Source: Candidatus Kapaibacterium sp.
GTDB lineage: Bacteria; Bacteroidota; Ignavibacteria; Kapaibacteriales; Kapaibacteriaceae
Direction: 5' to 3'
Assembly (NCBI GenBank): GCA_018883125.1
Contig: VEQR01000023.1
Span: forward strand, 1 to 33,380
Length of the DNA: 33,380 bases
Shown: one piece after another, positions 247-31,266 of the stretch
Layout of the letters: every line of letters starts with the position of its first letter
Position numbering within the stretch: the first letter of the stretch is position 1
Notes under the pieces: generated by a model
Seen by the model: the letters and a program-made list of their open reading frames with translations, nothing else
Database searches by the model: none
Told to the model about the DNA's origin: nothing
Position numbers and translations under genes: made by a program

Positions 247-1218
247 TCACCACGCATACGCCTCCGGTGCTTGGTTGCCCGGACCCGGCCAGATGCGATC
301 CAGTTCGGCGAGTGTTTCTACATCAAGCGTAAGATTCATCGACGCAACGTTGGCGTCGAGCTGTTCAACCGTGCGGGGGCCAATGATGGGGCTCGTAACA
401 CCGTCACGCTGCAGCAGCCATGCAAGGGCAACGTCGGCACAGTCGATGCCGAGCTTGGCGCAGAGAGCTTCATAGCGTTCAACCTGCGGACGGAGCTTTT
501 CGGCGGCTTCGATGAGTTGCGGACGCTTGCGTCGCAGTGTGTCGGACTTTGAGAAGATGCCGGCCAGCAAGCCCCCTCCAAGCGGACTCCATGGGATCAT
601 TGCCATGCCGTAGGCTTTCGCGGCGGGGATGACCTCGAGTTCTACATGACGATTGCGAAGAGAGTACACGCTCTGCTCGCTGACGAGTCCGAGGAAGTGA
701 CGCTGTTTGGCCATTTCGTTGGCTTGTGCCATGTTCCATGCAGCAAAGTTGCTCGAGCCCACATAGAGGATCTTTCCTTCACGCACGAGCTGCTCCATGG
801 CCTGCCATACTTCCTCCCACGGAGTTGCCCGGTCGATATGATGCATCTGATAGAGATCGATGTGATCGGTCTTGAGTCGACGTAGCGAATCCTCGCAGGC
901 CTTCTTGATGTGGTAGGCCGAGCATCCGCGGTCATTCACGCCATCGCCCATTGCAGTGTAAAGTTTTGTGGCAAGCACGATCTTGTCGCGTCGAGACGGA
1001 TCCTGGCTGAGCCAGTTACCGATGACTTCTTCGGTGCGCCCCTTGCCCTTATCCCATCCGTATACATTAGCCGTGTCGAAGAAGTTGATGCCATGTTCAA
1101 GAGCCCGACTCATGATCGGGAACGAATCTTGTTCTTCGATCCAGTATCCGAAGTTCATGGTGCCAAGGCATAGCTTCGAGACTTTGACGCCGGTGCGTCC
1201 GAGGTTGACGTAGTTCAT
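247..1218 (-). CDS. Aldo/keto reductase family oxidoreductase
   Basis: The 323-residue product has the usual length of NAD(P)H-dependent aldo/keto reductases, cytosolic TIM-barrel enzymes that reduce aldehydes and ketones. The catalytic tetrad is visible: Asp48 in NFFDTANVYG, Tyr53, Lys85 in LATK and a His at 126/127 in QMHH. The C-terminal cofactor-binding segment is present (SPIIGPRTVEQLDANV). The start is the ATG at 1216-1218, giving MNYVNLGRTGVKVS, the normal family N-terminus; the frame stays open upstream but that extension has no family resemblance. The physiological substrate cannot be told. The gene diverges from the acyltransferase gene at 1331, and its stop codon lies against the heptamer array at 1-245, so its transcript would run into the repeat. 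Confidence 0.93.
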   Translation of the reverse strand: MNYVNLGRTGVKVSKLCLGTMNFGYWIEEQDSFPIMSRALEHGINFFDTANVYGWDKGKGRTEEVIGNWLSQDPSRRDKIVLATKLYTAMGDGVNDRGCSAYHIKKACEDSLRRLKTDHIDLYQMHHIDRATPWEEVWQAMEQLVREGKILYVGSSNFAAWNMAQANEMAKQRHFLGLVSEQSVYSLRNRHVELEVIPAAKAYGMAMIPWSPLGGGLLAGIFSKSDTLRRKRPQLIEAAEKLRPQVERYEALCAKLGIDCADVALAWLLQRDGVTSPIIGPRTVEQLDANVASMNLTLDVETLAELDRIWPGPGNQAPEAYAW

Positions 1219-1330
1219 GGTGATTATTCGATTGTTGAGATATCCACTTATCAAGTTACGGCTCGTCGTGTTTCCAATTCTTAGCCGATAGCACAACACT
1301 ATCGTAATACTACCGTTGTAACGTCGCGTC
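1219..1330. promoter_or_regulatory. Divergent intergenic region with inverted repeat CGATAG-N7-CTATCG
   Basis: This 112-bp gap separates the divergent aldo/keto reductase and acyltransferase genes, so it should hold promoters for both. A perfect 6-bp inverted repeat with a 7-nt spacer lies at 1286-1291 / 1299-1304. It has the size of a dimeric regulator operator, but could be chance. No clear TAnnTTTG box is visible on either strand; a weak match (TAACGTCG) lies 4 nt before the GTG at 1331. Confidence 0.35.
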
Positions 1331-3136
1331 GTGCCAAACTCAAACCCAGCGGCGGGTTTCCGTCGCAACCTCGTGACGACTGACCAACTGGCCTCAATGC
1401 TTGGGCTTTCGAGCAGCAACCCCCTCGTGAGGATTGCTTGGAATACTCTCAGTCTCTCGCAGATCAATGACCTCTATTCGGCAGTCGCACACCTCAAGGG
1501 CGATACGTTTCTCGACGAGTTCTTCTCGACGATGAACATTGATTTGAGTTTCGACCAAGCTGAGCTTGAACGGATTCCTGATCAGGGTCCGGTGTTGATT
1601 GTGTCAAATCATCCGTTCGGAGCCGTGGATGGGCTGGCACTCATCTCACTTGTTCGAAAGCGTCGTCCTGACGTACGCGTGATGGCCAATGGTATCCTAT
1701 CAATGGTGGAACCACTTTCTGATGTCGTGATCTCTGTCGACCCCTTCCGCCGCGTCTCATCCCAAGGGGCCAACACGAGCGGAATGCGACAATGTTTGAG
1801 ACATGTGAGGCAGGGCGGAGCGTTGATCGTTTTCCCGGCTGGGGAAGTGTCAGCACCTCAGGGATCAGAAAGCGATCCACTCGACAAGCCGTGGGACATT
1901 TCGGTGATGAAGCTTATTCAGAAGACCTCTGCAGTAATCGTTCCAGTCCATATTCCGGGCAGAAACTCCGAGATGTTCTATCGAGTGGGCAAGATTCACC
2001 CGCGACTACGAACGGCGTGGCTTCCTCGCGAACTCTTGAAGAAGCGTAACTCAAGAATCGACGTCACTATTGGCCGGTCCGTCGATCGACAAATCCTGGC
2101 GCGCCTTTCTGATCCCGAGGAGTTGGGACGTTATCTGCGTGCGCATGTGTATGCTCTGGCCAACAGATTTGACAAGGGATGTCGTCGAGCAGCAGTGAGA
2201 GTATCACCCCAGCATGATATCGTTGAGGCTCTCGACCCGCGCTCTGTTGCCAACGAAATTTCCTTGCTTGCCTCTTGCAAGATCATCGAACAAGGCGGCT
2301 TTGAATTGTACCTACTGAATGGAGACGCCGCGCCAGCGGTGCTTCACGAAATCGGACGGCTTCGTGAGATAACATTCCGTGACGTTGGAGAAGGCACTGG
2401 TAATTCAATTGATGTCGATTCCTTTGATCGCCACTATCAGCATCTGGTACTCTGGCATCCCGAATCGTCGATGATCGTGGGTGCCTACCGCCTCGGTCAT
2501 GGTGCTCAGTGCATTAAGCGCCACGGAGCAGCCGGAATGTACATTTCGACTCTCTTCTCTATAGATGAACAGGGACGAAAACTTCTGCAATCGAGCCTGG
2601 AGTTGGGTCGCTCATTTGTTCGCAAAGAGTTTCAGCGTCACCGACTACCCCTATTCCTTCTTTGGCGTGGGATCCTTCAGTACGTCTCGCAAAACCCAGA
2701 GATACGCTCGATCATTGGACCGGTCTCGATTAGTGCAGACTACTCCGATGTATCAAAGGTTCTGATGATCGAGTTCTTCCAACGTCAGGCACAGTCATCG
2801 GCATTCTGCGGGCATGTCGTTCCCGTACAGAGGTACGTCCCACAGCGGACAGCCGGAGTCGACCTCAATGCCCTCTTGGCACCTGTTGGTGGTGAATTGC
2901 GCCAGCTTGACCGAGTTATCGGTCAACTCGAGGCATCCTTGCGGACAACTCCGGTGTTGATTCGCAAATACTGTGCACAGAACGCCAAGATCGTTGCTTT
3001 CAACGTCGATCCGAACTTCAATAATGCCCTCGATGGATTCATGGTCCTTGACGTGTCCGACATTCGGAGTGAGCTTGAGGAGATGACGCGCTGTCGGATT
3101 TCCAGCTCGATCGAGCAGGAACCGCAAAGGCCCTGA
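1331..3136 (+). CDS. Two-domain acyltransferase, OlsF-like (ornithine lipid synthesis)
   Basis: A 601-residue fusion. The N-terminal half (about 20-290) is a lysophospholipid/1-acylglycerol-3-phosphate acyltransferase (PlsC-type) domain, with His94 and Asp100 in SNHPFGAVDG and the FPAGEVS block at 168-174. The C-terminal half (about 320-600) resembles the GNAT-fold OlsB family (FDRHYQHLVLWHP, IVGAYRLG, YISTLFS). In characterised OlsF proteins the N-terminal domain does O-acylation and the C-terminal domain N-acylation of ornithine, making ornithine lipid at the membrane; that role is inferred here from domain order. The start is GTG at 1331; GTG at 1373, just before the conserved TTDQLA segment, is an alternative. 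leuS follows 20 nt downstream. A different amino-acid substrate (glycine, lysine) is possible. Confidence 0.72.
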   Translation: MPNSNPAAGFRRNLVTTDQLASMLGLSSSNPLVRIAWNTLSLSQINDLYSAVAHLKGDTFLDEFFSTMNIDLSFDQAELERIPDQGPVLIVSNHPFGAVDGLALISLVRKRRPDVRVMANGILSMVEPLSDVVISVDPFRRVSSQGANTSGMRQCLRHVRQGGALIVFPAGEVSAPQGSESDPLDKPWDISVMKLIQKTSAVIVPVHIPGRNSEMFYRVGKIHPRLRTAWLPRELLKKRNSRIDVTIGRSVDRQILARLSDPEELGRYLRAHVYALANRFDKGCRRAAVRVSPQHDIVEALDPRSVANEISLLASCKIIEQGGFELYLLNGDAAPAVLHEIGRLREITFRDVGEGTGNSIDVDSFDRHYQHLVLWHPESSMIVGAYRLGHGAQCIKRHGAAGMYISTLFSIDEQGRKLLQSSLELGRSFVRKEFQRHRLPLFLLWRGILQYVSQNPEIRSIIGPVSISADYSDVSKVLMIEFFQRQAQSSAFCGHVVPVQRYVPQRTAGVDLNALLAPVGGELRQLDRVIGQLEASLRTTPVLIRKYCAQNAKIVAFNVDPNFNNALDGFMVLDVSDIRSELEEMTRCRISSSIEQEPQRP

Positions 3137-3145
3137 CAAGCCCCC

Positions 3146-3153
3146 TATATTTG
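3146..3153 (+). promoter_or_regulatory. TAnnTTTG promoter box 3 nt before leuS start
   Basis: TATATTTG matches the Bacteroidota -7 element exactly. It ends 3 nt before the leuS ATG at 3157, so transcription would begin at or beside the start codon, giving a leaderless mRNA. No TTG is seen at the expected -33 distance. Confidence 0.5.
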
Positions 3154-3156
3154 CGG

Positions 3157-5706
3157 ATGCACTATCCATTCGCATCCATCGAAGAAAAGTGGCAGCGTCA
3201 CTGGGCCGACAACGCCACGTATCGGGTTTCTGACGACCACTCAAAGCCGAAGTATTACGTACTCGATATGTTCCCGTACCCTTCGGGGGCAGGCCTCCAT
3301 ATCGGTCATCCGGAAGGATACACGGCCACGGACATCGTAAGTCGCTTTAAGCGCATGTGCGGATTCAACGTTCTGCATCCTATGGGCTTTGATGCCTTTG
3401 GTCTGCCAACGGAGCGCTACAGCATGACGACGGGAATCCACCCTTCGATCGCTACGGCCAACAACATCGAGACATTCAAGCGTCAGCTCAATGCCATCGG
3501 CTTTGACTACGACTGGTCGCGCGAGGTCAACACAACTCTTCCGGAATACTACCGCTGGACGCAGTGGATGTTCCTTATGATGTACAATTCGTGGTTCGAT
3601 CGATCGGTCGGCAAGGCGCGTCATATCGACGAACTGCCGATCCCTGTGGATGTGACGTCGGCTGCAGACATCGAGACCTATCGTGATGCTCATCGTCTCG
3701 CCTACATCGCCTATAGCCCCGTGAACTGGTGCGAAGCACTCGGCACAGTATTGGCCAACGAAGAGGTAGATGAATGGAAAGAGAAGGGCTACACCGTCGA
3801 ACGACGTCCAATGCGCCAGTGGATGCTCCGCATCACGGAATATGCCGAGCGTCTGCTTGAAGATCTGACGCTGCTTGACTGGCCATCGTCGACGCTTGAA
3901 ATGCAGCGCCACTGGATCGGAAAGAGTCAGGGGGCTGAGGTACACTTCCCCGTTCAGGATCACGAGCACACCATAACGGTATTTACCACTCGTCCGGACA
4001 CGCTTTTCGGTGCCACATACTTGGTGGTTGCTCCCGAGCATCCGATCGTTGATCATATCGTGGCAGATGCCCATCGCACTGATGTGCTGTCCTATCGGGA
4101 GGTAACCGCGCTCAAGAGTGACCTCGAGCGGACCGAACTGAGCAAGGTCAAAACAGGCGTCTTCACTGGCGCGTATGCGATCAACCCCGCCAATGGAGTG
4201 GCAGTGCCGATCTGGGTAGCCGATTACGTGCTGGCCCATTACGGTACAGGTGCCATCATGGCCGTGCCCGGACATGACGAGCGAGACCACGAATTCGCCA
4301 CATCCTTTGGCCTGCCGATCGTGCAAGTGGTGACACCGATCGACGGCTCGACGGCTGATGTAGCTGTTTCCGCTTTCTCGGACGACGGCATCGGCATGAG
4401 TTCGGAGAACTCTCATGTCTCACTGAACGGTCTGCCCACGGCCGATGCGAAGTCCACGATCATCGCGTGGCTTGAATCGTCCGGTGCGGGCAAGGAGCGC
4501 ACCCAATACCGCCTGCGCGACTGGCTCTTTTCACGTCAGCGCTACTGGGGCGAACCAATTCCGATCATGTTCTTCGAAGATGGCACAAAGCGCGCACTCG
4601 AGGCCGATGAGCTTCCGTTGCTACTGCCCGATGTGGCCGAATTCAAGCCGGCCGGCACGGGCGAGTCGCCCCTTGCCACCGTTGAGTCGTGGGTCAATTT
4701 CGTCGATCCCAAAACAGGCAAGAAGGCGCGCCTTGAGACCAACACCATGCCTCAGTGGGCTGGTTCCTGTTGGTACTACCTGCGCTACTGTGACCCACGG
4801 AATGCGGAGATCTTCTGTGCATCGGATGCGGAGAGATATTGGATGGGCAAGGATGGAGTGGACCTCTATGTTGGAGGGGGCGAGCATGCCGTACTCCACC
4901 TTCTCTATGCCCGATTCTGGCACAAGGTCCTCTATGACTTCGGCTACGTGTCAACGCCTGAACCATTCAAGCGGTTGTTCCACCAGGGCCTGATCATGGG
5001 CGAGGACGGACGGAAGATGTCGAAGTCGCTCGGTAATGTGGTCAATCCCGACGAAGTGATCTCTGCTCACGGTGCCGATGCTCTGCGTCTCTACGAAATG
5101 TTCCTGGGTCCACTCGAGGCCTCCAAGCCATGGAACACCACCGGTATCGAAGGAGTCACACGATTTCTGAATCGCACGTGGCGCATGATAGCCACCGAAG
5201 ATGGTGCTCTCTCCCCTGCCGTGCAGGATGTGTCTCTGCCGAATGATTCCGAGCGCGTGCTGCATGCGACCATCAAGAAGACACGCGAAGATGTTGATGC
5301 TCTGAGTTTCAATACAGCCATCGCGCAGCTCATGATCTTCGTCAATGAGTTTACGAAGCTCGAGGTACGTCCACGATCGGCCATGATGCAGTATTTGCAG
5401 TGCCTTGCCCCTTTCGCTCCTCATATCACTGAAGAGCTCTGGCAGATCCTTGGCTGCCATGGATCAATACATACGTCGTCATTCCCCGAGTATGATGCAT
5501 CAAAGCTTGTACTCGACGAGATTGAGATTGTTGTACAGATCAGCTCGAAGATCCGGGGCAAGGTTATCGCGCCGCTGAACGCCGATGCGGCAACAATCGC
5601 CTCGCTGGCGCGCCAGGACGAGGCCATTGCCAAGCATCTGGAGAACAAAGAGATCGTCCGAGAGATCTTTGTCCCAAACAAACTGATCAACTTCATCGTG
5701 AAGTAA
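3157..5706 (+). CDS. leuS: Leucine--tRNA ligase
   Basis: Class I aminoacyl-tRNA synthetase that charges tRNA-Leu in the cytosol. The 849-residue product has the HIGH motif (GLHIGHPEGYT), the CP1 editing domain (TTRPDTLFGATY, later TGAIMAVPGHDERD), the KMSKS loop (DGRKMSKSLGNV) and the C-terminal anticodon-binding region (LAPFAPHITEELWQ). The ATG at 3157 gives MHYPFASIEEKWQ, the usual start of the family; a TTG two codons earlier lies inside a promoter-like box and is less likely. There is no Shine-Dalgarno sequence, in keeping with the leaderless arrangement. The secreted-protein gene at 5710 begins 3 nt after the stop. Confidence 0.98.
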   Translation: MHYPFASIEEKWQRHWADNATYRVSDDHSKPKYYVLDMFPYPSGAGLHIGHPEGYTATDIVSRFKRMCGFNVLHPMGFDAFGLPTERYSMTTGIHPSIATANNIETFKRQLNAIGFDYDWSREVNTTLPEYYRWTQWMFLMMYNSWFDRSVGKARHIDELPIPVDVTSAADIETYRDAHRLAYIAYSPVNWCEALGTVLANEEVDEWKEKGYTVERRPMRQWMLRITEYAERLLEDLTLLDWPSSTLEMQRHWIGKSQGAEVHFPVQDHEHTITVFTTRPDTLFGATYLVVAPEHPIVDHIVADAHRTDVLSYREVTALKSDLERTELSKVKTGVFTGAYAINPANGVAVPIWVADYVLAHYGTGAIMAVPGHDERDHEFATSFGLPIVQVVTPIDGSTADVAVSAFSDDGIGMSSENSHVSLNGLPTADAKSTIIAWLESSGAGKERTQYRLRDWLFSRQRYWGEPIPIMFFEDGTKRALEADELPLLLPDVAEFKPAGTGESPLATVESWVNFVDPKTGKKARLETNTMPQWAGSCWYYLRYCDPRNAEIFCASDAERYWMGKDGVDLYVGGGEHAVLHLLYARFWHKVLYDFGYVSTPEPFKRLFHQGLIMGEDGRKMSKSLGNVVNPDEVISAHGADALRLYEMFLGPLEASKPWNTTGIEGVTRFLNRTWRMIATEDGALSPAVQDVSLPNDSERVLHATIKKTREDVDALSFNTAIAQLMIFVNEFTKLEVRPRSAMMQYLQCLAPFAPHITEELWQILGCHGSIHTSSFPEYDASKLVLDEIEIVVQISSKIRGKVIAPLNADAATIASLARQDEAIAKHLENKEIVREIFVPNKLINFIVK

Positions 5707-5709
5707 TCT

Positions 5710-6891
5710 ATGAGACAACTCAGCGTGCGGCTGCTTATCGTGCTTGCCGTGGCTACGGCCTATGCGCAGGATGCTCCGCCGTACTTCGGCGGACCCTTTG
5801 TGGTTGGCACGACCCCTCTGAAGGATCTTCCGGAGGTGTCCGGCCTTGCAGCGTCGTCTCTGAATCCGGGCCTGATCTGGATGCACAACGATTCCGGTGA
5901 TGAGCCGCGCGTCTATGCGGTAATCCTGCCGGGACGGATTGCGGCCCGGGTGCGATTGCAGGGGGCTACCCATATCGACTGGGAGGACATCGCCCGAGGT
6001 CCGGGACCAGAACCTGGCGCAAGCTACCTGTACGTGGCCGACATCGGCGACAACTCCGCCAAGCGCAGCAGCGTGACGGTGTATCGGATCCATGAACCGC
6101 GCATCGACACCTCTCAGCGAGATGTGCAGATGATGATTCCATCGGACTCTGTGGAGAGATTCACGCTGCGCTACCCCGACGGTGCGCGTGATGCGGAAGC
6201 ATTGCTGGTCGATCCTCGTACGGGCGACATTGTGATCGTGACCAAGCGAGAGCAGCGCTGTAGGGTCTATTCAGTGAGCGGTCCACACCAGAATGGAAGT
6301 GACCGACCTCTCACCTATCACGGTGAGATCCCGTTGCAGCTTGTCACCGGTGGCGATGTGTCGCCCGACGGATCGATGATCCTGCTGAAGACCTACATGC
6401 AGATACGCCTTTGGAAACGCGCCGACCAATCGTCACTGGCGTCGGCGATCACCGGTGCCGGCTTGCCCCTTCCCTACATGCCGGAGCGTCAGGGAGAGGC
6501 GATCGGTTTTACGGCCGCGGGCGACTGCTACTACGCCACGTCGGAATGCGAGAATGGTGGACCGGCGGCTGCGATCATGCTCTATCCATCAGCACCAAGT
6601 AGGGCTGCGGCCGAGGCTGCGCGCGACGTGCGCCTACCGTCCATCCAGGTCAGGCGAATGCTCCCGACAGGCACAACATATCGCGTGCGATATTCTGTGC
6701 CCGAGGTCGAGCGTGTAACACTGACCGTTCATAATGCGGCAATGTTCAAGATCATGACGCTGGCCGAGGACACGGCTGAGTCCGGCCCTCAGGAGCGCAC
6801 CTTCGATGCGGCCAAGCTTCCGCCGGGAATCTATGCCGTAGTGCTGGAAACAACCTCTGCCCGCGTGGCAACGACTGTGGAGATCCGATGA
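5710..6891 (+). CDS. Secreted phytase/esterase-like beta-propeller protein
   Basis: 393 residues with a signal peptide (hydrophobic residues 5-17, likely cleavage after AYAQ around residue 20). The body has the pattern of secreted proteins annotated as esterase-like activity of phytase: SGLAAS, WMHNDSGDEPRVYAV, DWEDIA, YVADIGDNSAKR, then DAEALLVDPRTGDIVIVTK. Such proteins are thought to form beta-propellers, and substrates are mostly unproven. A C-terminal beta-rich tail of about 70 residues (VRYSVPEVERVTLTVHN to GIYAVVLETTSARV) resembles a T9SS sorting-type domain, weaker than those in the proteins ending at 20350 and 27683. The gene starts 3 nt after leuS and overlaps the next gene by ATGA, so the two secreted proteins are probably co-expressed. 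Confidence 0.68.
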   Translation: MRQLSVRLLIVLAVATAYAQDAPPYFGGPFVVGTTPLKDLPEVSGLAASSLNPGLIWMHNDSGDEPRVYAVILPGRIAARVRLQGATHIDWEDIARGPGPEPGASYLYVADIGDNSAKRSSVTVYRIHEPRIDTSQRDVQMMIPSDSVERFTLRYPDGARDAEALLVDPRTGDIVIVTKREQRCRVYSVSGPHQNGSDRPLTYHGEIPLQLVTGGDVSPDGSMILLKTYMQIRLWKRADQSSLASAITGAGLPLPYMPERQGEAIGFTAAGDCYYATSECENGGPAAAIMLYPSAPSRAAAEAARDVRLPSIQVRRMLPTGTTYRVRYSVPEVERVTLTVHNAAMFKIMTLAEDTAESGPQERTFDAAKLPPGIYAVVLETTSARVATTVEIR

Positions 6892-8177
6892 AACGATCAC
6901 TGCAACGGGGCTATGTGCTTGCCCTGTCTCTGTTCATGCTCGTGCCAACAATGGCAATTGGCGACGATGCCGCCGTTAAGCGTCGGCTCGATGAGGTCTG
7001 CACCATTCTTTCCGGTGGACCGGTTCTGTATGAGTCGATATTCACTGCGGAATTTCTCAAGCAAGTACCACCGGCCAAGCTGACGATGCTTGCCGGACAG
7101 CTCGCCGGCGATGCAGGGCCGTGCACCGGCATGCGGATCGTTGAACGTCGCTCGGGATATCAAGTATCGGCCGAAGCAACCACGAAAAATGGATACACCA
7201 TTCCGGTGTTGCTCACCATTGAAATGCAGGCCCCCTACCGCATTGCCGGACTCTTTCTGCGTCCACCAGTAAAGGCCGTTGCCTCTCTGGAGTCGCTCAG
7301 GAAGGAATTTGAGACGCTCCCCGGACGTGTGTCATTCCATGCGGTAAATCTTGGCGGTGGGGTAAACATCTGTTCTCTTGCCCCCTCGGAACAACTGCCG
7401 ATCGGCTCGACCTTCAAGCTGTATGTTCTCGGAGAGCTCGTAAGATCTATCCGAAAGAAGGAGCGCAATTGGACCGACGTTGTCAAGCTCGACTCCGCAT
7501 GGCGTTCGCTTCCATCCGGCCGACTGCATACATGGCCCCATGGGTCACCATTGACGCTGCACTCTCTGGCCACGATGATGATCTCTGAGAGTGATAACAC
7601 GGCCACAGACGCGCTCATCCGTTTGCTCGGTCCGAATCGCATCTCCCAGCAGATGTCGGCCATGGGTCATGACCGGCCCGACCTGAATCTACCCTTCGTT
7701 ACAACGTTGCAAGCATTCAAACTGAAATACGCCGATGCATCGACCGGCAAGCGTTTTGCCGCCGCCGGTTCCGACGAACGCAACGTTATCCTGCGCCAAA
7801 TTGATACCTCGATCACGTACGACTCGATCACCCCGGCAACCGAGCCCGTATTGTCAGACAAGGTCGAATGGTTTGCCTCAACGGCGGATCTGTGCCGCGC
7901 TATGGATTGGTTCCGAGCCGATGCCGTGATGCAGAAAGACTTCTCCGCTCTCGACATTCTTGGGGTCAACCCCGGTATCCAGAACGCAAAGGTGTGGAAA
8001 CACGTCGGCTTCAAAGGGGGCTCAGAACCGGGTGTGATCAACCTGACCTATCTGCTCGAGCACCCCAACGGCAGCTGGTACGGCATCAGCGGAACCTGGT
8101 CCAACCCCAACGGCACCGTTGAAGAGATGCGATTCGTCGGCCTGCTCGAACGTGCCGTGCAGTTACTGGAGAAGTGA
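6888..8177 (+). CDS. Secreted serine hydrolase, class A beta-lactamase fold (ORF12/Cpe-like layout)
   Basis: 429 residues: signal peptide (about 1-25), an N-terminal helper domain (about 28-125) and a beta-lactamase2-type domain (about 140-429). The SxxK motif is Ser174-Thr-Phe-Lys177 and the SDN motif is Ser235-Asp236-Asn237. The third motif reads KGG (376-378) instead of KTG. The omega-loop segment RPDLN (263-267) lines up with the EPELN of class A enzymes but has Arg where the deacylating Glu166 should be. The layout matches the LpqF/clavulanate ORF12 group, where a small N-terminal domain precedes an esterase-like serine hydrolase. True beta-lactamase activity is therefore doubtful; periplasmic esterase or amide hydrolase is more likely. 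It overlaps the upstream gene by 4 nt. Confidence 0.78.
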   Translation: MKRSLQRGYVLALSLFMLVPTMAIGDDAAVKRRLDEVCTILSGGPVLYESIFTAEFLKQVPPAKLTMLAGQLAGDAGPCTGMRIVERRSGYQVSAEATTKNGYTIPVLLTIEMQAPYRIAGLFLRPPVKAVASLESLRKEFETLPGRVSFHAVNLGGGVNICSLAPSEQLPIGSTFKLYVLGELVRSIRKKERNWTDVVKLDSAWRSLPSGRLHTWPHGSPLTLHSLATMMISESDNTATDALIRLLGPNRISQQMSAMGHDRPDLNLPFVTTLQAFKLKYADASTGKRFAAAGSDERNVILRQIDTSITYDSITPATEPVLSDKVEWFASTADLCRAMDWFRADAVMQKDFSALDILGVNPGIQNAKVWKHVGFKGGSEPGVINLTYLLEHPNGSWYGISGTWSNPNGTVEEMRFVGLLERAVQLLEK

Positions 8178-8195
8178 GATGCCCTTTGTGTCGGG

Positions 8196-9427: not shown

Positions 9428-9587
9428 GGTTTTGGGTTTTGGGTTTTAGGTTTTGGGTTTTAGGTTCTAGGTGGCAGCATTTGCTCTTGCTCAAATGACA
9501 GACCAACCTCACACCCAACACCCAAAACCTAAAACCCAACACCCAACACCCAACACCCAACACCCAAAACCCAAAACCTAAAACCTA
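9428..9587. repeat. Heptamer repeats in inverted orientation
   Basis: The left arm 9428-9469 is six units of GGTTTTR (the last is GGTTCTA). The right arm 9514-9587 is ten units plus CCTA of the complementary family CCCAACA / CCCAAAA / CCTAAAA. A 44-bp spacer (9470-9513) separates them. The two arms can pair, so the region could extrude as a long imperfect hairpin. It lies between the divergent ATPase and miaE genes, ending 8 nt before the miaE promoter box. The unit length is again 7 bp, as in the array at 1-245, although the sequence is unrelated. Confidence 0.93.
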
Positions 9588-12190: not shown

Positions 12191-12654
12191 GCTCTGATGT
12201 GCTGCCACCGCTGATCTTTCCGTCCTTCGAGATGAAGATCTCTCATGATGGCGTGGCAACCCGCATCTACGATCCTGTTCGACGCGCCAACGTGGTGCTC
12301 ACTCCCGAAGAGTGGGTTCGCCAACACTGTCTGCACTGGCTTCTCTCAAGGGGCTACCCGCTTGGTCGCTGCAGCATTGAGCGAGCGGTTGATTCAGCCG
12401 CCTCGCAGAACGCACAAAGGTTCGACCTGCTCTGGCGAGATGAACATCTCAATCCCTTTCTGCTGGTGGAATGTAAATCAGCATCCACGCCGATCAACGA
12501 TGCCACTCTTCGTCAGACTGCCTGGTATAACTTGTCCCTTAAAGCCCCCTACGTGCTCCTGACCAATGGCGTAACAGCCTTCTGCGGGCGGGCAGAAAAC
12601 GATGGCAGCATCCATCCATTAGCCGATATCCCAGACTATTCACTTTCTGTCTAA
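12187..12654 (+). CDS. Small PD-(D/E)XK-like protein, HSDR_N_2 family
   Basis: 155 residues. It resembles the stand-alone type I restriction R-subunit N-terminal family that is widespread in Bacteroidota: a start like LPPLIFPSFEMKI, then TPEEWVRQHCLHWLL. Nuclease-type residues are present: Asp80 (RFDLL), Glu95-x-Lys97 (LVECKS) and a QxxxY pair, Gln110 and Tyr114. The pattern suggests DNA or RNA cleavage or binding, but no member's role is established to my knowledge. The start at 12187 is chosen for the ATGA overlap with SemiSWEET; a longer upstream frame lies inside that gene. pyrC begins 3 nt after the stop. No HsdM/HsdS genes are near, so it is not part of a restriction system here. Confidence 0.8.
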   Translation: MSSDVLPPLIFPSFEMKISHDGVATRIYDPVRRANVVLTPEEWVRQHCLHWLLSRGYPLGRCSIERAVDSAASQNAQRFDLLWRDEHLNPFLLVECKSASTPINDATLRQTAWYNLSLKAPYVLLTNGVTAFCGRAENDGSIHPLADIPDYSLSV

Positions 12655-23300: not shown

Positions 23301-25389
23301 CGAAGAGACACAAGCGGTCGATATAGTTCAGCGAGTCCGTTGGACGGAAGGTGATCGGGATGGTGGTCGAATCTCCAGGATTGATCGTACGGCTTGTACC
23401 ACCGAGCAGGGCAAACGATTCGCCCCTTTCAACGTACAGCGCAACCGTGAGGGCATCGATCTTGCTGTTGTTTTTTGCGCGCACGTTGATGGTCTTCTGC
23501 TGACCAACAAGAACATCGCCAAAGTCCACAAGTCCGTTTACCGACCATTGCACCTTGTTATCGAGTCCACGACCGGTGACGTAGATCTTCTTCTCGATCT
23601 TGCAACCCTGTATCTGTGTTTTGATGATGATCGAATCAAACACCGTTCCCGGCTGCCGCGGCAGGAACCGCACGGAATTGAATGGATAACCGGTCTTCGG
23701 CAAAAGTGTGAATGGGAATCGAATACGATAGTGTGTAAAGTCCTTCGGGACGATGATCGTGTCGATGACAAGATTGGACAGCGTAAGGTTTTGCCACGTG
23801 TAATTCTGCGGATTACTGAGCAACCCGGGGCAGGTCGGTTCAAAACGCATTGTGTCAATACGACGGCTGCCGGCAGTATTCCTGATCGCGATCACCTCCT
23901 GCGTTCGTCCCATCAGCTCCACGGTGATCGGCGTTTTTTGACACTGATCATCGGTCACGATCCGCAGCGTGTCTTTGTAGTCTGCCGTAGTGTCTCGCAC
24001 ATAGGAACGAACCACGAGCGTTGTGCACTGTCCCGGCTGCAGCCTGATCGGATACGTCACACCCACCAATGCAAAGCCCTTGGGCTCGGTTGTCCATGTA
24101 CGCTGGATGGTCAATACGCGGGGACGTCCAAGCACATCCGACGTGTTACAGACGATGATGGTCGAGTCGAACTGCGTATTGTCAACGCACCCAACCCAGA
24201 GAGTGTCGAAGAGAATACCCCGACGGTTGATACCGGTTTCCGTGATGCGGTTGAGCTCCATCCGAACCTGGATGTTGGGCAGGCCACAGCGATTTGTCGG
24301 ACGGATCTCAAGCGTATCAATGAAGGTACCCACAAGAGTACCCCGGAACGTCACCGTTACCACCTGCGGAATGCCGCCGGTAAGGTTGACACTTGTCGGA
24401 GAGATAGTGAACAGACTTGCATCAGGTCCACGCATTACCAGATTTGCCGTGCTTCCGCAAATGGCCGCATCGGTGAGGGTGAACTGCCACTGTTTGACTG
24501 TGTCGCAGAGGATGTCTTCCTTAACGGATGACGGGCTGACCGTGAGCGTTCGGCCGACCGTACGGTCGGACCGTTGGTTGGAAGCGCCCGAGCGGAGCAG
24601 TCCCGTATGCGCATTACCGGTGGCGTCGCACATTGTTGAGATATTGCCAACGCCCTCGTTACAGCGCAGATAGGCACGAAGTCCGGACTCATTGCCATTG
24701 AGCGAACGATCTTTCTGGCACATGATCGTTGTTGAATCCAGTGCCCGGTCCCAGATGCGGATCTCATCGACAAGGCCCTTCAGCGTGCGATAGGTGTTCT
24801 GGTTATCCGCCACGCCATTGCACGAGCCGATCAAGAACGGAAGATCGGGTCGATCAAGGTTCTTCAGGTAGCTGGTCGGATATTGACTATTACGAACAGG
24901 GCCAACGGCAAGAAGTCCATCGATGTAGATGTATGCGCTTTGCTGCGCGCCGTCGAACACGAACGCGACGTGGTGCCAAGCCCCATACAGAGATGCTGCC
25001 GACGTGCGAGCGATGGTGTTATCTACACCCTTGAGCTGCCCGACATCACCGTTGATCTCGAACACGAGATCATCATCGGTATCAATGTAGGCTACGAAAA
25101 CATCATTGAAGTCGGAGTTTGGTCCCCAAAGGCCGCCGACAAACTGACGCTGATTGGCCTGCTTTTCGATCTTCGCCCACATTTCGAAGGTAACGGCCGT
25201 TTGGCGTGCCTTAACAGGATTCTTCTGCAGCTCGATAAAGTGCTGACTCCGACCACTGGTCGTAGTGAACTGAACGGCGTTGAAAATGCAATCTTTCCGG
25301 CCGTCGCACGATGCCGGGAACTGCGCCGAGGATTGCGCAATGCCCACCACCAGAGCCGCCAGAACAAGAATGAGACGCTGAAGCTTCAT
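20350..25389 (-). CDS. Giant T9SS-secreted LamG / Ig-like repeat protein
   Basis: 1679 residues. Signal peptide 1-23 (LILVLAALVVGIAQSSAQ). A LamG/concanavalin-like domain at about 36-250 (TFEMWAKIE, GAWHHVAFVFD, AYIYIDG, GLVDEIRIWDRAL). Many Ig-like modules of about 100 residues follow, of the ASPM-SPD-2-Hydin / choice-of-anchor-D kind, with the recurring pattern VxFGxVxVG...NxSxxxxxV...PGDSxxxxxxFxP (e.g. VDFGDVLVGQQKTINV, AFGTVEVGDTKRMQM). One or two cohesin-like domains precede a C-terminal T9SS sorting domain (VEIFPQPAVSEALVSF ... SSGVYMLRISAG ... VPLVIAK). It is probably exported and attached to the cell surface, acting as an adhesin or matrix protein. The start is ATG 25389, directly before the signal peptide; the open frame upstream lacks one. 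Confidence 0.9.
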   Translation of the reverse strand: MKLQRLILVLAALVVGIAQSSAQFPASCDGRKDCIFNAVQFTTTSGRSQHFIELQKNPVKARQTAVTFEMWAKIEKQANQRQFVGGLWGPNSDFNDVFVAYIDTDDDLVFEINGDVGQLKGVDNTIARTSAASLYGAWHHVAFVFDGAQQSAYIYIDGLLAVGPVRNSQYPTSYLKNLDRPDLPFLIGSCNGVADNQNTYRTLKGLVDEIRIWDRALDSTTIMCQKDRSLNGNESGLRAYLRCNEGVGNISTMCDATGNAHTGLLRSGASNQRSDRTVGRTLTVSPSSVKEDILCDTVKQWQFTLTDAAICGSTANLVMRGPDASLFTISPTSVNLTGGIPQVVTVTFRGTLVGTFIDTLEIRPTNRCGLPNIQVRMELNRITETGINRRGILFDTLWVGCVDNTQFDSTIIVCNTSDVLGRPRVLTIQRTWTTEPKGFALVGVTYPIRLQPGQCTTLVVRSYVRDTTADYKDTLRIVTDDQCQKTPITVELMGRTQEVIAIRNTAGSRRIDTMRFEPTCPGLLSNPQNYTWQNLTLSNLVIDTIIVPKDFTHYRIRFPFTLLPKTGYPFNSVRFLPRQPGTVFDSIIIKTQIQGCKIEKKIYVTGRGLDNKVQWSVNGLVDFGDVLVGQQKTINVRAKNNSKIDALTVALYVERGESFALLGGTSRTINPGDSTTIPITFRPTDSLNYIDRLCLFETRCYVTDCIDLKGRGRMEIFRFQPLVMETQNVISCQAREDSVFIINATNSPRRIDSLQFVDQSGGRIAIIDPPTSINGTALTIPARDSARFRTRYTPADPTRDRADRAYIRFRDESRAEWQVQLIATSVAPKLYISQNTAFGTVEVGDTKRMQMIVENTSSLPVRVDSLTISAGFRIISTSRVVPLTLAPRDSIRVEVEFAPDAAKGYSGALTAYSSDPCVITGTGPLTGRGIIVKLESALSLVNFGYVRPCECVERSIELLNGSLKFDMSVEKLWIDSAGVPGGKPQFYSWKSKFSPNGTVPYTVPPGERDTVLLTFCPRTPADAALMECRAALHIKASGSQWSNTLETFLVGKRSLTFRPAPTAVQFPYGVVDVLSPQILTTVLKIPDYRLNPSQDIVTVDSVTFLPDDRIFTVSAPTTWPQVIKPGDSLVVQLRQRPRAPRDYRTRLKFWFSSPCTGWDTTVLVRGGGFAQTKGLQFAFDLMRPIPDTFKMVSCDTLNVPLYSSIKIDASVVNIGMRVDFDSTQLRLLDVTSTLLANQCTSQTGGVKFTPSLSFAPSPYGGQSVSLKNFCGVDSLKSFAVLRFVTLNNNRANSRLTIDSISFDTEDVILYRLIAAGDKGTIIAAKSDIMIKAPTDFDSVRILECADRTITVTNTGDVYNAVTQLLDLPASTTIVGSVPPMGDSIAPGDSAVFTLRYCPRKEQRDTSTPRAVSGYPCDVRDTSFAEGWGYAPEFDLSLLPTPTFFVSSPFKGAIGDTIQVPVMIDKDISATYNGVTYFLNGLNFDATVTYEPRSLKYIGIASQAKPNNTTVLPTLGQIGVEVRGADTLRAGPLLTLQFVMTAPELSSTSISVSSNGYTSDSLQFLDVAPKSGSSPVESSGKCNITVVKFAPGGKARVEIFPQPAVSEALVSFRMQETVPVFIDVVDARGTVVRTVLDGSVTLSGGEYSLRFDTADLSSGVYMLRISAGVFNSSVPLVIAK

Positions 25390-25595: not shown

Positions 25596-27683
25596 ATGCA
25601 TTCAATCCTTCGCCCCCTTCTGCCGGTTGCCGTCCTCATTGCCGCTACTCTGCTGGCCCCCGCTCAGGCGCCGACTCCGCGCGACTTCGGCCTGGCCCTG
25701 AACGCTAAAGTCACCGGCGGCGCGCAGCCCAAGATCACGCTGCGCTGGAACAAGGACGATAACCAGCAATCGGTCTACATCTGGAAGAAGCTGAAGGATG
25801 TTGCCCGCTTCGAGGCGGACGTCTATGACTCCGTGATTGGCAAGGGGCTTGAGTGGACCGATACTCAGGTCGAGGTAGGCCAATCATACGAATACCGAGT
25901 GTTCCGCTTGGTTGCGCGCACCGGAGCTACGCCGGCCACGTTCTACGGAACGGGTTATATCAACGCCGGGATCGAAGCGCCCCCTGCCCCCCGCGAACGA
26001 GTACTTGTGCTGGTGGATTCGACCATGCGTCAGCCCCTTGCAAACCAGCTAACGACGTTCGAGCAGGACCTTATCAACGAAGGTTGGGAGGTAACGATGC
26101 TGTCCGTTCCGCGAGCTACGTCTTTCGACTCCGGCAAGGTGAACCAGGTTCGGGCGCTGATCAAGCGGGAATGGAATTCTGTGCAGAATATCGGTGGTAT
26201 CGTCCTTGTGGGGCGCGTTCCTGTTCCTTACTCCGGCATCATCGCGCCGGATGGACACCAGGATCACCTAGGTGCATGGCCGGCCGACGGTATCTATGGC
26301 GACCACAACGGCAGTTATACAGACCGGACTGCGAGTCAGCTAAACACATCCCGTCCGTCAAACAACAACGTAGTGGGCGACGGGAAGTTTGACCAGAGTC
26401 TCTTTAGTACCGATGTTGACATTCCTGTGGGGCGCATCGATTTCTACAATCTTCCACAGTTCAGCAAGAGCGAAACGGACCTCCTGAAGAACTACTTCAA
26501 GAAGAACCACGACTACCGCACTGGCGCGTGGAACGTAACCATGGGTGGCATCATCGACGACAATTTTGGTACCTACGGCGAGGTCTTTGCTGCCTCGGCA
26601 TGGCGGATGTTTAGCGTTTTTGGACCCGATACTGCCGTCAAAGCTGGGGACTTTTTTGCCGACCTGAATGGACCGAACACGATGCTTCTTGGCTACGGCT
26701 GCGGAGGCGGCACGGATGTGTCTGCCGGGGGCGTTGGCACAACCACGGATCTGTCGACAAAGCCAGTACACGCGGTGTTCACCTTTCTGTTTGGAAGCTA
26801 CTTTGGGGACTGGGACACCAAGAATAATTTCCTGCGCTCAGCACTTGCCACTGACCCTCGCGTTCTGACATGCTCGTGGTCTGGACGTCCTCACTGGTAT
26901 ATCCATCACATGGCACTCGGCGAGACAATTGGCTATAGTGCGCGTTTGGCCCAGAATAACATGCCTATCGTTTCCAATCAGCTTGGCAATTACATACCGA
27001 ATGCCACTGTCGGCACAAACGGTATGAGCATCGCATCCGCCGGTGACCGCCAGATCCACATAGCCTTGATGGGCGATCCAACGTTGCGTGCCGTTCCGAA
27101 GCCAATAGCTGTCGTCAACACCCTTACCGGATCAACAGAGCTTCCGGACAAGGTCAACCTTACATGGCTAAAGCCATCGGGGTCAGCGGACGCATTCACC
27201 GTCTATCGTCGTAAGCAAGGCGTTAAAAAGTGGACGCTTCTCACGTCCCGTCCCATCACAGCAACAACGTTCCGCGACTCGCTCAAGAGCGAAGGCACAC
27301 TTGAGTACATGGTCCGCACCTGCGCTCTCCGCACCACAGCCAGTGGAACCTACTATGACATGGGTAAAGGGGCTGTATGCAGCGTCATCACAACCGGCAT
27401 TACCGAGGACGCACCCGTTGCCGGCCAGGTGCTGGCAACGGTTCATCCCAATCCTGCATCGGACAACCTGAGCATTGAGTTCACGGTCACCCGTTCGGGC
27501 GAGACAATTGTCGACCTTTTCGACATCACCGGCCGCAGCGTAGCCCGCTTCAATCCCGGAATGCTTGCCGCCGGTTCTCACCGCACGTCGTTTGATGTCT
27601 CAGCGCTCCCAACCGGTACGTACACACTTTCGGTTAAGGGTGCCGGCGAGAGCACAACGGTTCCGGTGATGGTCGTACGATAA
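25596..27683 (+). CDS. Gingipain-like (C25 fold) T9SS-secreted protein, catalytic residues apparently replaced
   Basis: 695 residues: signal peptide (1-24), a fibronectin-III-like domain (about 30-125), a C25 peptidase-like domain (about 135-500), a second FN3-like domain (about 515-610) and a T9SS sorting domain (about 615-695; VHPNPASDNLSIEF to GTYTLSVKG). C25 landmarks are the VLVLVDSTM strand, GGIVLVGRVPVP, DGIYGD and DIPVGRIDFYN. By eye, the GHG of gingipains aligns with GYG (Tyr367) and the CVNGDF nucleophile with SYFGDW (Ser401), so the His-Cys dyad is missing. It may be a binding protein rather than a protease, or use Cys369 differently. It diverges from the giant T9SS protein. Confidence 0.82.
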   Translation: MHSILRPLLPVAVLIAATLLAPAQAPTPRDFGLALNAKVTGGAQPKITLRWNKDDNQQSVYIWKKLKDVARFEADVYDSVIGKGLEWTDTQVEVGQSYEYRVFRLVARTGATPATFYGTGYINAGIEAPPAPRERVLVLVDSTMRQPLANQLTTFEQDLINEGWEVTMLSVPRATSFDSGKVNQVRALIKREWNSVQNIGGIVLVGRVPVPYSGIIAPDGHQDHLGAWPADGIYGDHNGSYTDRTASQLNTSRPSNNNVVGDGKFDQSLFSTDVDIPVGRIDFYNLPQFSKSETDLLKNYFKKNHDYRTGAWNVTMGGIIDDNFGTYGEVFAASAWRMFSVFGPDTAVKAGDFFADLNGPNTMLLGYGCGGGTDVSAGGVGTTTDLSTKPVHAVFTFLFGSYFGDWDTKNNFLRSALATDPRVLTCSWSGRPHWYIHHMALGETIGYSARLAQNNMPIVSNQLGNYIPNATVGTNGMSIASAGDRQIHIALMGDPTLRAVPKPIAVVNTLTGSTELPDKVNLTWLKPSGSADAFTVYRRKQGVKKWTLLTSRPITATTFRDSLKSEGTLEYMVRTCALRTTASGTYYDMGKGAVCSVITTGITEDAPVAGQVLATVHPNPASDNLSIEFTVTRSGETIVDLFDITGRSVARFNPGMLAAGSHRTSFDVSALPTGTYTLSVKGAGESTTVPVMVVR

Positions 27684-27727: not shown

Positions 27728-29179
27728 TCAGCGTCGCGAGCGCCAAACCATATACACCGGAACTCCGCTTGCCACGATCAGCAGACCCGGCCAACTATAG
27801 TTAGGCTTGTAGATCAGCAGGCAAACGCAGATCGTCAGGGCCAGCACGATGTAGAGCGCCGGCAGCACAGGATAGCCAACGGCTTTGATCGGGCGAGGTG
27901 CGTCCGGCCGTGTTGTCCGTAGGCGGAAAATGCCGAGGATCGTCAGCACATAGAAGATCAGCACGGCAAAGACAACATAGTCGAGCAGGTCGCCATACTT
28001 ACCACTCAGACACAGAGCGGAAGCCCAAACGGCCTGCATCCAGAGGGAGGCAGCAGGAGCCCCATTCCTGTTAAGCGTGGCGGCTTTGCGGAAGAACATC
28101 CCGTCGTTAGCCATGGCATAGTAGGCGCGAGATCCGCTAAGGATGATCCCGTTATTGCACCCGAAGGTAGAGATCATGATGAGGACAGCCATGATGAGGC
28201 CGCCCGAAGGGCCAAAGATCACATCGGCCGCAGCGGCACCAACGCGATCGTTGGTGGCAAATGCAATGCCGCGCCCCAGTGACGTTGGAGCGTCAGGCGA
28301 ACCACCAATAGGCATCACCGAGATATAGGCGAGATTTGTCAGGAGATACAGAGCGGTCACGAGGGCCACACCCATGATGAGTGCCCGGGGAATGGTTCGT
28401 TCCGGACTCTTCACTTCCGAGGCAGCGAAAGTAATGTTGTTCCAGGCATCGCTGGAGAACACCGAGCCCACCATTGAGACGGCAACAATGGCCAGAAACG
28501 GCATGCCGTATCGACTGGCAAAACCGTACGACGTCTGCTGATCAGGGGTAAGCATCGGCACCGCTGATGAAACTCCATCCGTCCAGAGAGACCCCAATGC
28601 AGACGCGAGGGTACCGTTGGAGAGGCCATACACGATTCCGGCAGTGGCAAGAGCCACAACACTGACGATCTTGGTGGTTGTGAAGGTGTTCTGTACCAGC
28701 TTACCCAGACTTACGCCACGGGCGTTAAGGGCCGTTAACGCAATGATCGATAGGATCGCAAAGGCCTGTGCCGCGTTGATCGAAAAGCCCCCTGCCGAAA
28801 TCAGAATGTGAGTCTCCCCTACGCCCGGGAACACGGCCGACGTATACTTGGCAAAGGCCATCGCTACTGCGGCTATCGTTCCGGTCTGTATCACCGTAAA
28901 GAGCGTCCACCCGTAAAGGAACCCTGCAAGAGGACCAAACGCTTCGCGCAGATACACGTACTGTCCACCGGCATGGGGCAACAGACCAGCCAGCTCGCCA
29001 TAGGACAAAGCGGCGATCATCGTTAACAGACCCGTGACAAGCCAAACAACAAGCAACATGCCCGGCGAGCCAACGGAGCGAGCAATGTCGGCACTCACTA
29101 AGAAAACGCCGGACCCAATCATGGATCCGGCGACGATCATCGTAGAGTCGAATAGTCCGAGCTCGCGCTTGAAACTCAT
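27728..29179 (-). CDS. APC-superfamily amino acid permease (LAT/SteT-like)
   Basis: 483 residues with about 12 hydrophobic segments and the APC signature in helix 1 (GSMIGSGVFL) preceded by the short LGLFDSTMIV lead. It should move amino acids across the inner membrane by exchange or proton symport; the substrate cannot be read from sequence. The start is ATG 29179, preceded by an AGGGAG Shine-Dalgarno sequence; a longer upstream frame overlaps the neighbour and has no family likeness. It overlaps the stop of the upstream permease by ATGA, so the two are translated together. No transcription terminator is obvious in the 44-nt convergent gap at 27684-27727; only a 5-bp hairpin lies at 27713-27725. 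Confidence 0.92.
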   Translation of the reverse strand: MSFKRELGLFDSTMIVAGSMIGSGVFLVSADIARSVGSPGMLLVVWLVTGLLTMIAALSYGELAGLLPHAGGQYVYLREAFGPLAGFLYGWTLFTVIQTGTIAAVAMAFAKYTSAVFPGVGETHILISAGGFSINAAQAFAILSIIALTALNARGVSLGKLVQNTFTTTKIVSVVALATAGIVYGLSNGTLASALGSLWTDGVSSAVPMLTPDQQTSYGFASRYGMPFLAIVAVSMVGSVFSSDAWNNITFAASEVKSPERTIPRALIMGVALVTALYLLTNLAYISVMPIGGSPDAPTSLGRGIAFATNDRVGAAAADVIFGPSGGLIMAVLIMISTFGCNNGIILSGSRAYYAMANDGMFFRKAATLNRNGAPAASLWMQAVWASALCLSGKYGDLLDYVVFAVLIFYVLTILGIFRLRTTRPDAPRPIKAVGYPVLPALYIVLALTICVCLLIYKPNYSWPGLLIVASGVPVYMVWRSRR

Positions 29180-30627: not shown

Positions 30628-30775
30628 CAGCGTCTCCCCTTTTGATTACGGATTTTTCGGCCTCGCAATATACATGTGGGAACGTGATAGCACCCGCAGA
30701 TTGTTCTTCCGAGTGCGTACGTTTGCACCTTCCTTGAAGGAGTCATTTTTTATCGTCAACAATTTGGAGATCCCT
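30628..30775. promoter_or_regulatory. Divergent intergenic region (permeases / peroxiredoxin)
   Basis: 148 bp between the divergent permease operon and the peroxiredoxin gene. It carries the Shine-Dalgarno sites of both (GGGGAG on the minus strand near 30636-30641; GGAG at 30766-30769 for the GTG start at 30776). No clear -33/-7 promoter pair is visible. Confidence 0.3.
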
Positions 30776-31246
30776 GTGGCACTTGCCGTTGGAACCCCCG
30801 CACCAGATTTCACACTCGTCGGCACAGACATGAAGCCGGTTTCTTTATCCTCATTCGCTGGCAAGAATGTTGTGGTTGCCTTCTTCCCGGCTGCTTTCAC
30901 GGGCGTCTGTCAAGATGAGCTGTGCACCTTTCAAGGGGCTTTGCAGCGCCTTAATGGTGTGAATGCTGCTGTATTGGCCATCACGGCCGACATTCCGTTT
31001 GCTAACAAGGCCTTTGCTGACGCAAATGGTCTGCAGTTCCCACTCCTTTCGGACTTCACGCTGGCAACGATCAATGCGTACGATGTAGCATTCGAGAACT
31101 TTGCCGGAATAAGCGGCCTGACGCGCTCACACCGCGCTGTCTTTGTTGTTGGCCCTGACGGTACGATCTCCTATTGCGAGGTCACCGAGAATCCGGGCGT
31201 GCTGCCAAACTTCGACGCTCTGTACGCCGCTCTCGGCGCTGCCTGA
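30776..31246 (+). CDS. Peroxiredoxin, Bcp/PrxQ-like atypical 2-Cys
   Basis: 156 residues. The active site PxxxTxxC is Pro38-Thr42-Cys45 ([10 protein letters not shown]) and the catalytic Arg is Arg120 (SHRAVFVV). A second cysteine, Cys50, gives the C-x4-C spacing known in Bcp/PrxQ, where it resolves the sulfenic acid. It reduces peroxides using thioredoxin or similar donors. The GTG at 30776 is chosen because GGAG lies 6 nt upstream and the protein then starts [12 protein letters not shown] as the family does; the frame is open further up to 30674 without homology. A strong hairpin follows the gene. Confidence 0.93.
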
Positions 31247-31266
31247 GCCCCCTGACACATACGACG

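Follow-up and report, generated by a model that had tools for sequence, protein, structure and literature searches.

A strand-spaced octamer of Candidatus Kapaibacterium as a possible Chi-like signal read by AddAB

The octamer ARGGGGCT (R being A or G) was noticed in a stretch of 33,380 nucleotides from Candidatus Kapaibacterium sp. (contig VEQR01000023.1, positions 1 to 33,380; hereafter the window) and proves to be a greatly over-represented word of the whole genome and of most of its family, the copies of which repel each other on the same strand only. Our favored interpretation, to which we assign a probability of roughly 45%, is that ARGGGGC(T/G) is a selected, non-palindromic, genome-wide signal that resembles Chi sites and is read on one strand, most likely by the helicase-nuclease AddAB. 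Among the papers listed in searches of the open-license literature, none dealt with this word or with words of the Chi or uptake type in this lineage.

Abundance and composition of the word

The window holds 13 copies of AGGGGGCT and 10 of AAGGGGCT, the two forms of ARGGGGCT, compared to 0.59 and 0.79 copies expected under a third-order Markov model and 1.55 + 1.22 expected from base composition. The coordinates of all 23 copies in the initial annotation are exact, its composition estimate of about three agrees with the recomputed values, and its split into 15 sense, 6 antisense, and 2 intergenic copies was reproduced with open reading frames hand-picked from the list of such frames. However, it had reported only two copies of the sister word ACGGGGCT, of which there are 5, and made no mention of ATGGGGCT, of which there are 6.

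Across the whole genome that contains the window (G000; 2,901,579 bases in 199 contigs), ARGGGGCT occurs 981 + 990 = 1,971 times compared to 106 occurrences of the reversed, uncomplemented control word, which amounts to a density of 0.68 per kb. In a sample of this genome (39 genome stretches plus the window, together 500,912 bases with 489,294 readable ones after masked parts were dropped), AGGGGGCT was found 200 times versus 9.9 expected at third order and AAGGGGCT 168 times versus 12.8, i.e., 368 versus 22.8 for both forms or an excess of about 15- to 16-fold. The initial annotation had proposed a genome-wide word and had named a count near the third-order expectation as the outcome that would speak against it; the counts of 368 versus 22.8 and 1,971 versus 106 lie far from that outcome, and the proposal therefore stands.

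The signal consists of A-R-GGGGC followed by an eighth base that depends on the lineage. Its core is strict, since 34 of the 36 words altered at A1, G3-G6, or C7 lie at 0.0 to 1.4 of their second-order expectation and the two exceptions at 1.8 and 2.4. Near matches to the core are not in excess in any of three genomes when these 36 one-mismatch words are pooled (322 copies versus 394 expected in G000, or 0.82, with 0.81 in G014 and 0.91 in G010 at third order; 0.90, 0.86, and 1.12, respectively, at second order). At position 2, R is preferred and C and T are still about 4.8-fold over expectation, and at position 8 the order of preference in G000 is T > G > A > C. Weaker preferences extend into the flanks, which in G000 favor GG at -3/-2 and, for the T form, also C at +17. 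At -2 of ARGGGGC, G shows the strongest enrichment in each of the six profiled genomes, and position +11 is mostly G in G015 (93%, 41 sites) and G016 (85%, 26 sites). With regard to the enrichment in core over acquired DNA that is looked for in Chi sites, genes of atypical codon usage (the top nine of 276, a cut chosen after seeing the data; these genes are of lower G+C) contain 3 ARGGGGC sites in 9.5 kb, compared to about 14 at mean density.

Spacing of copies on the same strand and on opposite strands

Successive ARGGGGCT sites in G000 alternate between strands more often than not (208 opposite-strand versus 127 same-strand neighbors, z -4.4) because same-strand sites repel each other. This repulsion acts within about 400 to 600 bp, does not affect opposite-strand sites, and was observed in three independent samples: Same-strand pairs less than 400 bp apart number 19 versus 54.6 expected in G000, 4 versus 16 in G014, and 2 versus 8.4 in G010, whereas opposite-strand pairs, in the same three genomes and the bins below 400 bp, lie between 0.98 and 1.96 times expectation. 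When strand labels were shuffled 20,000 times over fixed positions, none of the permutations was as low as the observation in G000 (below 400 bp) or G014 (below 600 bp), and 11 were as low for ARGGGGCK (K being G or T) pooled over G010, G011, G006, and G021 (below 500 bp). Dropping pairs closer than 100 bp, which excludes hairpins, left these numbers at 0, 0, and 97 of 20,000 for G000, G014, and the pooled four, respectively. In the same test, the strand effect is gone at 1 to 2 kb in G000 (ARGGGGCK) and at 2 to 4 kb in G014.

Smaller samples, each counted in the genome's own dialect and below 500 bp, gave 1 same-strand pair versus 3.4 expected in G015 (with 4 opposite-strand pairs), 0 versus 4.3 in G011 (5 opposite-strand), 4 versus 8.1 in G006 (5 opposite-strand), and 1 versus 1.9 in G016 (none opposite-strand). 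Among 22 8-mers with 100 to 400 copies in G000, several of which overlap the motif, the median same-strand ratio below 400 bp is about 1.3; the lowest ratios belong to AGGGGGCT (0.19) and AAGGGGCT (0.64), and AGGGGGCG is found at 1.2. Same-strand gaps are also more regular than random, with a coefficient of variation of 0.8 for ARGGGGCK in G000 and 0.67 for ARGGGGCT in G014. Relative to the core word (30 to 400 bp, same strand), ARGGGGCA and ATGGGGCT are both depleted (0.55 and 0.57) and ARGGGGCC and ACGGGGCT more mildly so (0.77 and 0.76), and five of seven words with a broken core (9 to 18 sites each) show no same-strand depletion at 1.09 to 1.78. If copies of the word are mutually redundant only on the same strand, this is most simply explained by a reader that is confined to one strand or to one direction of movement, and the same-strand-only repulsion points to an enzyme that moves directionally and reads a single strand.

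Strand balance and gene context

No replication polarity was found when strand bias was sought by contig, GC skew, and chromosome half in G000 and G014. The genome of G014 is a single contig of 2.84 Mb that was sampled in 20-kb pieces. Ten pieces at 140 to 1,438 kb (nine of negative GC skew, one of positive) have 37 sites on the plus and 39 on the minus strand, and ten more, taken from 1,560 kb onward and without exception of positive skew, have 50 and 51, with the contig-start piece (6 and 2) excluded from these sums. Similarly, pieces of G000 longer than 4 kb contain 137 and 120 sites on the two strands at positive skew and 51 and 58 at negative skew. Polar signals like FtsK-orienting polar sequences (KOPS) or classical Chi sites were rejected in view of this balance, as the initial annotation had anticipated when it argued against a strongly polar signal from the window.

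Gene context was assigned with a simple purpose-written gene caller, the genes of which cover 83% of the G000 sample. The 368 sites of this sample comprise 167 in sense orientation, 135 in antisense orientation, 59 between genes, and 7 at gene boundaries, and they occupy both strands and all reading frames; the earlier view that one favored codon pair does not explain the copies in the window is hence borne out in this sample. The two forms lean in different directions, with AGGGGGCT on the sense side (104 sense versus 53 antisense) and AAGGGGCT on the antisense side (63 sense versus 82, a single antisense frame containing 66 of its 168 copies). Just 4 pairs of inverted neighbors in hairpin orientation, with starts 18 to 22 bp apart, occur among the 368 sites. 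At 33090-33118 of the window, an inverted ATGGGGCT pair (33090 and 33111) forms a hairpin with a run of T behind it and resembles an ordinary terminator.

Conservation of sites

Over 3136-8580 of the window, which aligns at 73% nucleotide identity with a related locus (L040), all 6 ARGGGGCK sites of the window are kept compared to 12.7% of random 8-mers, and 2 of these 6 have an unchanged core with altered free positions. Reciprocally, 6 of the 9 ARGGGGCK sites of L040 are present in the window. Four alignments at 59% to 63% identity retain 2/9, 3/9, 2/8, and 4/8 sites of the first sequence and, reciprocally, 2/13, 3/11, 2/6, and 4/10 (random 8-mers, 5% to 7%), and two comparisons between relatives at 66% to 69% identity retain 7/13 and 5/11 or, reciprocally, 7/11 and 5/6 (random 8-mers, 9% to 10%). 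An alignment of L231 with L233 (0/6 both ways; 41% identity, masked bases) was left out of these counts. With sites conserved beyond their surroundings, the alignments indicate that sites are maintained yet turning over.

Distribution and dialects among relatives

ARGGGGCT was counted in 60 genomes including G000, of which 23 belong to the same family and 37 to the order's other families, nine in number. For the 23 family genomes, the patterns with C or R as eighth base were counted as well. The word is enriched in 21 of these 23, where the best pattern reaches at least 6.9 times its reversed control, and the preferred eighth base differs between genomes. Counts for T, C, and R are 1971/296/1695 in G000, 1871/66/367 in G011, 1360/100/212 in G014, 457/207/1031 in G013, 158/124/1131 in G015, and 104/679/268 in G016. 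In the remaining two genomes, which form one genus (g3), all three patterns stay under their controls (0.5 to 0.92; G012 with 68/59/238, G017 with 121/110/253). ARGGCGGC is a tentative candidate for a substitute word in this genus, but its excess in G012 (45 versus 8.6 at second order, in 108 kb) is not matched in G017 (22 versus 17.8); its spacing in G012 (4 same-strand and 9 opposite-strand pairs, with 4.5 expected for each) is not informative.

None of the 37 genomes of the order's other families is enriched for ARGGGGCT, the one pattern tested there, which reaches at most 1.8 times its control. Among 296 genomes across the phylum (10 of them in the family), the non-family genome in which the word is densest has 336 copies over 2.1 Mb with a control of 183; this 0.16 per kb is about that of the poorest genome of the window's own genus, G003, with 0.14 per kb. 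A few genomes of the phylum sample with very low controls reach 3- to 8-fold with at most 178 copies.

AddAB as candidate reader

The window itself encodes a putative reader subunit in an addA-like helicase-nuclease gene (15774..19166, plus strand), recognized by domain, model, and structure-sequence matches. Its product combines UvrD-type helicase and PD-(D/E)XK nuclease domains and, among NCBI models, best matches those for AddA, yet below their cut-offs. Of the solved chains, 3u44_A comes closest (E 9.7e-51); it is annotated as "ATP-dependent helicase/nuclease subunit A", and we take it to be Bacillus AddA. A candidate gene for the partner AddB was found on a different contig (G000:C2:2830-5901, minus strand) by model and domain matches; its protein has a PDDEXK_1 domain above the cut-off, and four models are matched below theirs, three for AddB/RexB and one for a "probable DNA repair protein". 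Matches of AddA type are present in 22 of the 23 family genomes, some of them partial at contig ends (the raw tally is 23/23, from which we omitted G020, where only related helicases match), and AddB matches likewise in 22 of 23. RecC was found in none of the 23, and the control search detected it only in E. coli.

If the word works like Chi, AddAB would enter at a DNA break and degrade the DNA until it met the word in the correct orientation, where it would switch to producing a 3' single-stranded end for RecA. Leftward- and rightward-moving enzymes would each require a set of their own, so that the two strands would bear independent, evenly spaced, and equally dense sets, and a second same-strand copy shortly past the first would contribute little and be lost, leaving a same-strand gap. 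The equality of the strands suggests that selection is dominated by two-ended breaks or incoming linear DNA and not by collapsed forks. Parts of this picture have precedent in Caulobacter (PMC5443536), where AddAB responds to an inserted Chi array in just one of its orientations and Chi recognition is put at about 0.23; it is further suggested in that study that Chi sites in a cluster are perhaps not independently recognized.

Several observations weigh against this interpretation. Its main weakness is that the two genomes of genus g3, which lack the word, retain both AddA and AddB. Conversely, G020 is the genome richest in ARGGGGCT and has no AddA match past related helicases, and G006 has no AddB match, perhaps because of an assembly gap in each case. 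No solved AddB that would allow Chi-contact residues to be compared was matched by sequence. With regard to spacing, ARGGGGCG on its own is repelled in G000 only below 200 bp (2 versus 7.8) and clusters 1.4- to 1.8-fold at 200 to 600 bp, ARGGGGCA on its own shows no repulsion in G000 (at small numbers), and two of the seven broken-core words lie at 0.72 and 0.75 on the same strand. We know of no parallel in Chi sites for flanking preferences that reach to about +17. Finally, the word lacks replication polarity. According to PMC8022716, Chi motifs are called partly by polarity, being polarized relative to replication with neighbors on the same strand, and Chi or Chi-like words are known from few species; the predominance of opposite-strand neighbors in G000 (127 same, 208 opposite) is the reverse of this criterion. 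Since polarity is part of how Chi is called, we do not file the word as Chi and propose instead that a Chi-like mode of action is the most likely one. The lack of polarity is compatible with an unpolarized Chi-like signal, and the strand-specific spacing favors one. Direct observations are the excess of the word across the genome, its balance between the strands, the repulsion on the same strand, the conservation of sites, the dialects, and the AddAB genes of the family, whereas reading by AddAB and its proposed consequence are inferred.

More tentatively, we propose that the word is a family-wide and previously undescribed self-recognition word that is read by strand and has dialects in its eighth base and flanks, serving either as an unpolarized AddAB code or as the site of a new directional reader. 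This reader would be neither a classical polarized Chi-RecBCD system nor pilus-based uptake, and an AddAB code would be tuned to two-ended breaks and incoming DNA. If so, the per-strand spacing rule would offer a general computational test to tell strand-reading from strand-blind enzymes, because same-strand and opposite-strand spacing can be compared for any over-represented genome word. The strict core, natural dialects, word-less genus, and spacing signature in these uncultured Bacteroidota also make a natural comparative series in which to look for the residues, in AddAB or another reader, that determine the word and to ask if Chi function needs polarity.

Alternative explanations

A different strand-specific reader, distinct from both AddAB and uptake, is rather unlikely in our estimate. 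It would be a nuclease, a motor, or a self-marking system, as yet undescribed, for which each strand must offer an oriented site once per one to few kb. The strand-specific spacing, the dialects in the eighth base and flanks, and the loss of the word in g3 despite AddA and AddB matches are all compatible with it. Among the proteins searched (AddA, AddB, RecC, ComEC, PilT, and PF01555), none proved to be shared by the 21 carriers yet absent from g3.

We also consider it unlikely that the word is a DNA uptake sequence (DUS) of the Haemophilus or Neisseria type, where cells bind free DNA by means of a surface receptor for the word, copies of which accrue by uptake and recombination. The initial annotation had listed an uptake-like word among its options, and this option keeps the support of the density of 0.68 per kb, strand balance without polarity, even spacing, genus dialects, and weak flanks, all of which resemble uptake sequences (PMC1939737, PMC3630211). 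It is further supported by matches to the inner-membrane protein ComEC in 57 of the 60 genomes, although G000 is among the three without one, together with G003 and one genome from another family. However, no PilT-family ATPase (TIGR01420) exceeds the cut-off in the 23 family genomes, where a single marginal match was obtained; in the control search, 13 of 14 named genomes gave a match, with 5 over the cut-off. Near matches to the core are not enriched, unlike in one DUS dialect with 21% extra one-off copies (PMC3630211), and close inverted pairs are limited to the 4 described above. The spacing is a further difficulty. Uptake by H. influenzae is reported to be independent of orientation (PMC1939737), so that repulsion between uptake words would presumably ignore strand, and the repulsion seen here depends on it.

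A mutational word akin to the highly iterated palindrome HIP1, which a methyltransferase or biased repair would create and protect with no reader involved, is improbable. This further option of the initial annotation draws on the all-or-none core and lineage-specific alternatives, which resemble HIP1 and its alternates (PMC4390886), but it is weakened by the non-palindromic nature of the word and by same-strand repulsion, for which a mutational process gives no evident reason. A methyltransferase link was rejected for PF01555, the one methyltransferase family tested, which does not follow the word: Matches occur in 11 of the 23 family genomes (9 over the cut-off), including one of the two g3 genomes, and are missing from 11 of the 21 carriers.

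Lastly, a compositional, codon, or terminator artifact is barely conceivable even though some GGGGCT cores form terminator hairpins, an example being the ATGGGGCT copies at 33090 and 33111, and both forms lean in gene context, given that the same model which yields an excess of about 15- to 16-fold places the core one-mismatch words at 0.81 to 0.91, that both strands and all frames are occupied, that no more than 4 of the neighboring pairs in the set of 368 sites are inverted at close range, and that the 37 genomes of the order's other families are not enriched; near-match counts and frame usage rule out a codon or composition artifact, and the scarcity of inverted pairs rules out a terminator origin.

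Copies in the window and neighboring features

Outside the addA gene, AGGGGGCT is found on the plus strand at 3929..3936 (within the LeuS gene; L040 has AAGGGGCT there), 5960..5967 (L040 has AAGGGGCG, with the same core and different free positions), 8015..8022 (kept in L040), 10736..10743, and 19448..19455 (conserved in 3/3 relatives compared), and on the minus strand at 570..577, 3139..3146 (kept in L040), 12543..12550, 21034..21041, 21885..21892, 28786..28793, and 31246..31253. AAGGGGCT lies on the plus strand at 12348..12355, 23224..23231, 25842..25849, 27367..27374, and 30933..30940 and on the minus strand at 10417..10424 and 26032..26039. Four copies fall within addA, of which AAGGGGCT at 18081..18088 (plus) is conserved in 3/3 relatives compared and AAGGGGCT at 16227..16234 (plus) and 16662..16669 (minus) as well as AGGGGGCT at 18418..18425 (plus) in 0/3.

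The second form of the word is represented by AAGGGGCG at 1037..1044, 4667..4674 (kept in L040), 18517..18524 (conserved in 0/3 relatives compared), and 23421..23428, all on the minus strand, and by AGGGGGCG at 4875..4882 (kept in L040) and 21621..21628 on the plus strand and 14513..14520 (kept in L209, lost in L208), 19320..19327 and 20307..20314 (each conserved in 0/3 relatives compared), 25611..25618, and 25978..25985 on the minus strand. Weaker forms are AAGGGGCA at 5406..5413 and 6464..6471 and AGGGGGCA at 7379..7386 (all minus), and the forms weakest in this genome are AAGGGGCC at 1764..1771, 8365..8372, and 15452..15459 (all plus) and AGGGGGCC at 7229..7236 (minus) and 13251..13258 (plus).

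Among the best 80 of 587 loci matched, the LeuS protein of the window is closest to those of two metagenome-assembled genomes labeled Ignavibacteria bacterium (86% and 70% amino-acid identity), followed by a Bacteroidetes bacterium and a Candidatus Kapaibacterium (65% each). A 196-amino-acid protein encoded at 12064-12654 consists mostly of an HSDR_N_2 domain (N-terminal domain of type I restriction R subunits). The window also contains heptanucleotide tandem arrays at 1-249 (ATCAGTC x35.6, at the contig end), 9427-9472 (AGGTTTT x6.6), and 9511-9578 (ACACCCA x9.7). The G000 sample has 28 such period-7 rows, some overlapping and with recurring units, and none were seen in the samples of G014 (420 kb), G010, G012, and G017.

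Comparison with known systems

HIP1 (GCGATCGC) of cyanobacteria is, like the word described here, a very frequent all-or-none octamer with lineage alternatives, yet it is palindromic and has cognate methyltransferases (PMC4390886), whereas our word is not a palindrome and PF01555 does not track it. The uptake signal sequences (USS) of Pasteurellaceae and DUS of Neisseriaceae share its copy number, strand balance, even spacing, genus dialects, and weak flanks, but differ with regard to the lack of PilT over the cut-off, of near-match excess, and of more than a few inverted pairs in our genomes as well as the restriction of repulsion to the same strand. Compared to Chi (GCTGGTGG for RecBCD of E. 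coli, GCGGTGGT for AddAB of Caulobacter), the word is unpolarized, denser than the one site per 5 kb of E. coli Chi (PMC8022716), tolerant of R at position 2, lineage-dependent at position 8, and endowed with flank preferences, and its reading by AddAB is a proposal. Similar to Chi, however, it is short, G-rich, asymmetric, over-represented, and lineage-specific, its spacing suggests that it is read on one strand, and genes for the cognate enzyme are present in the family.

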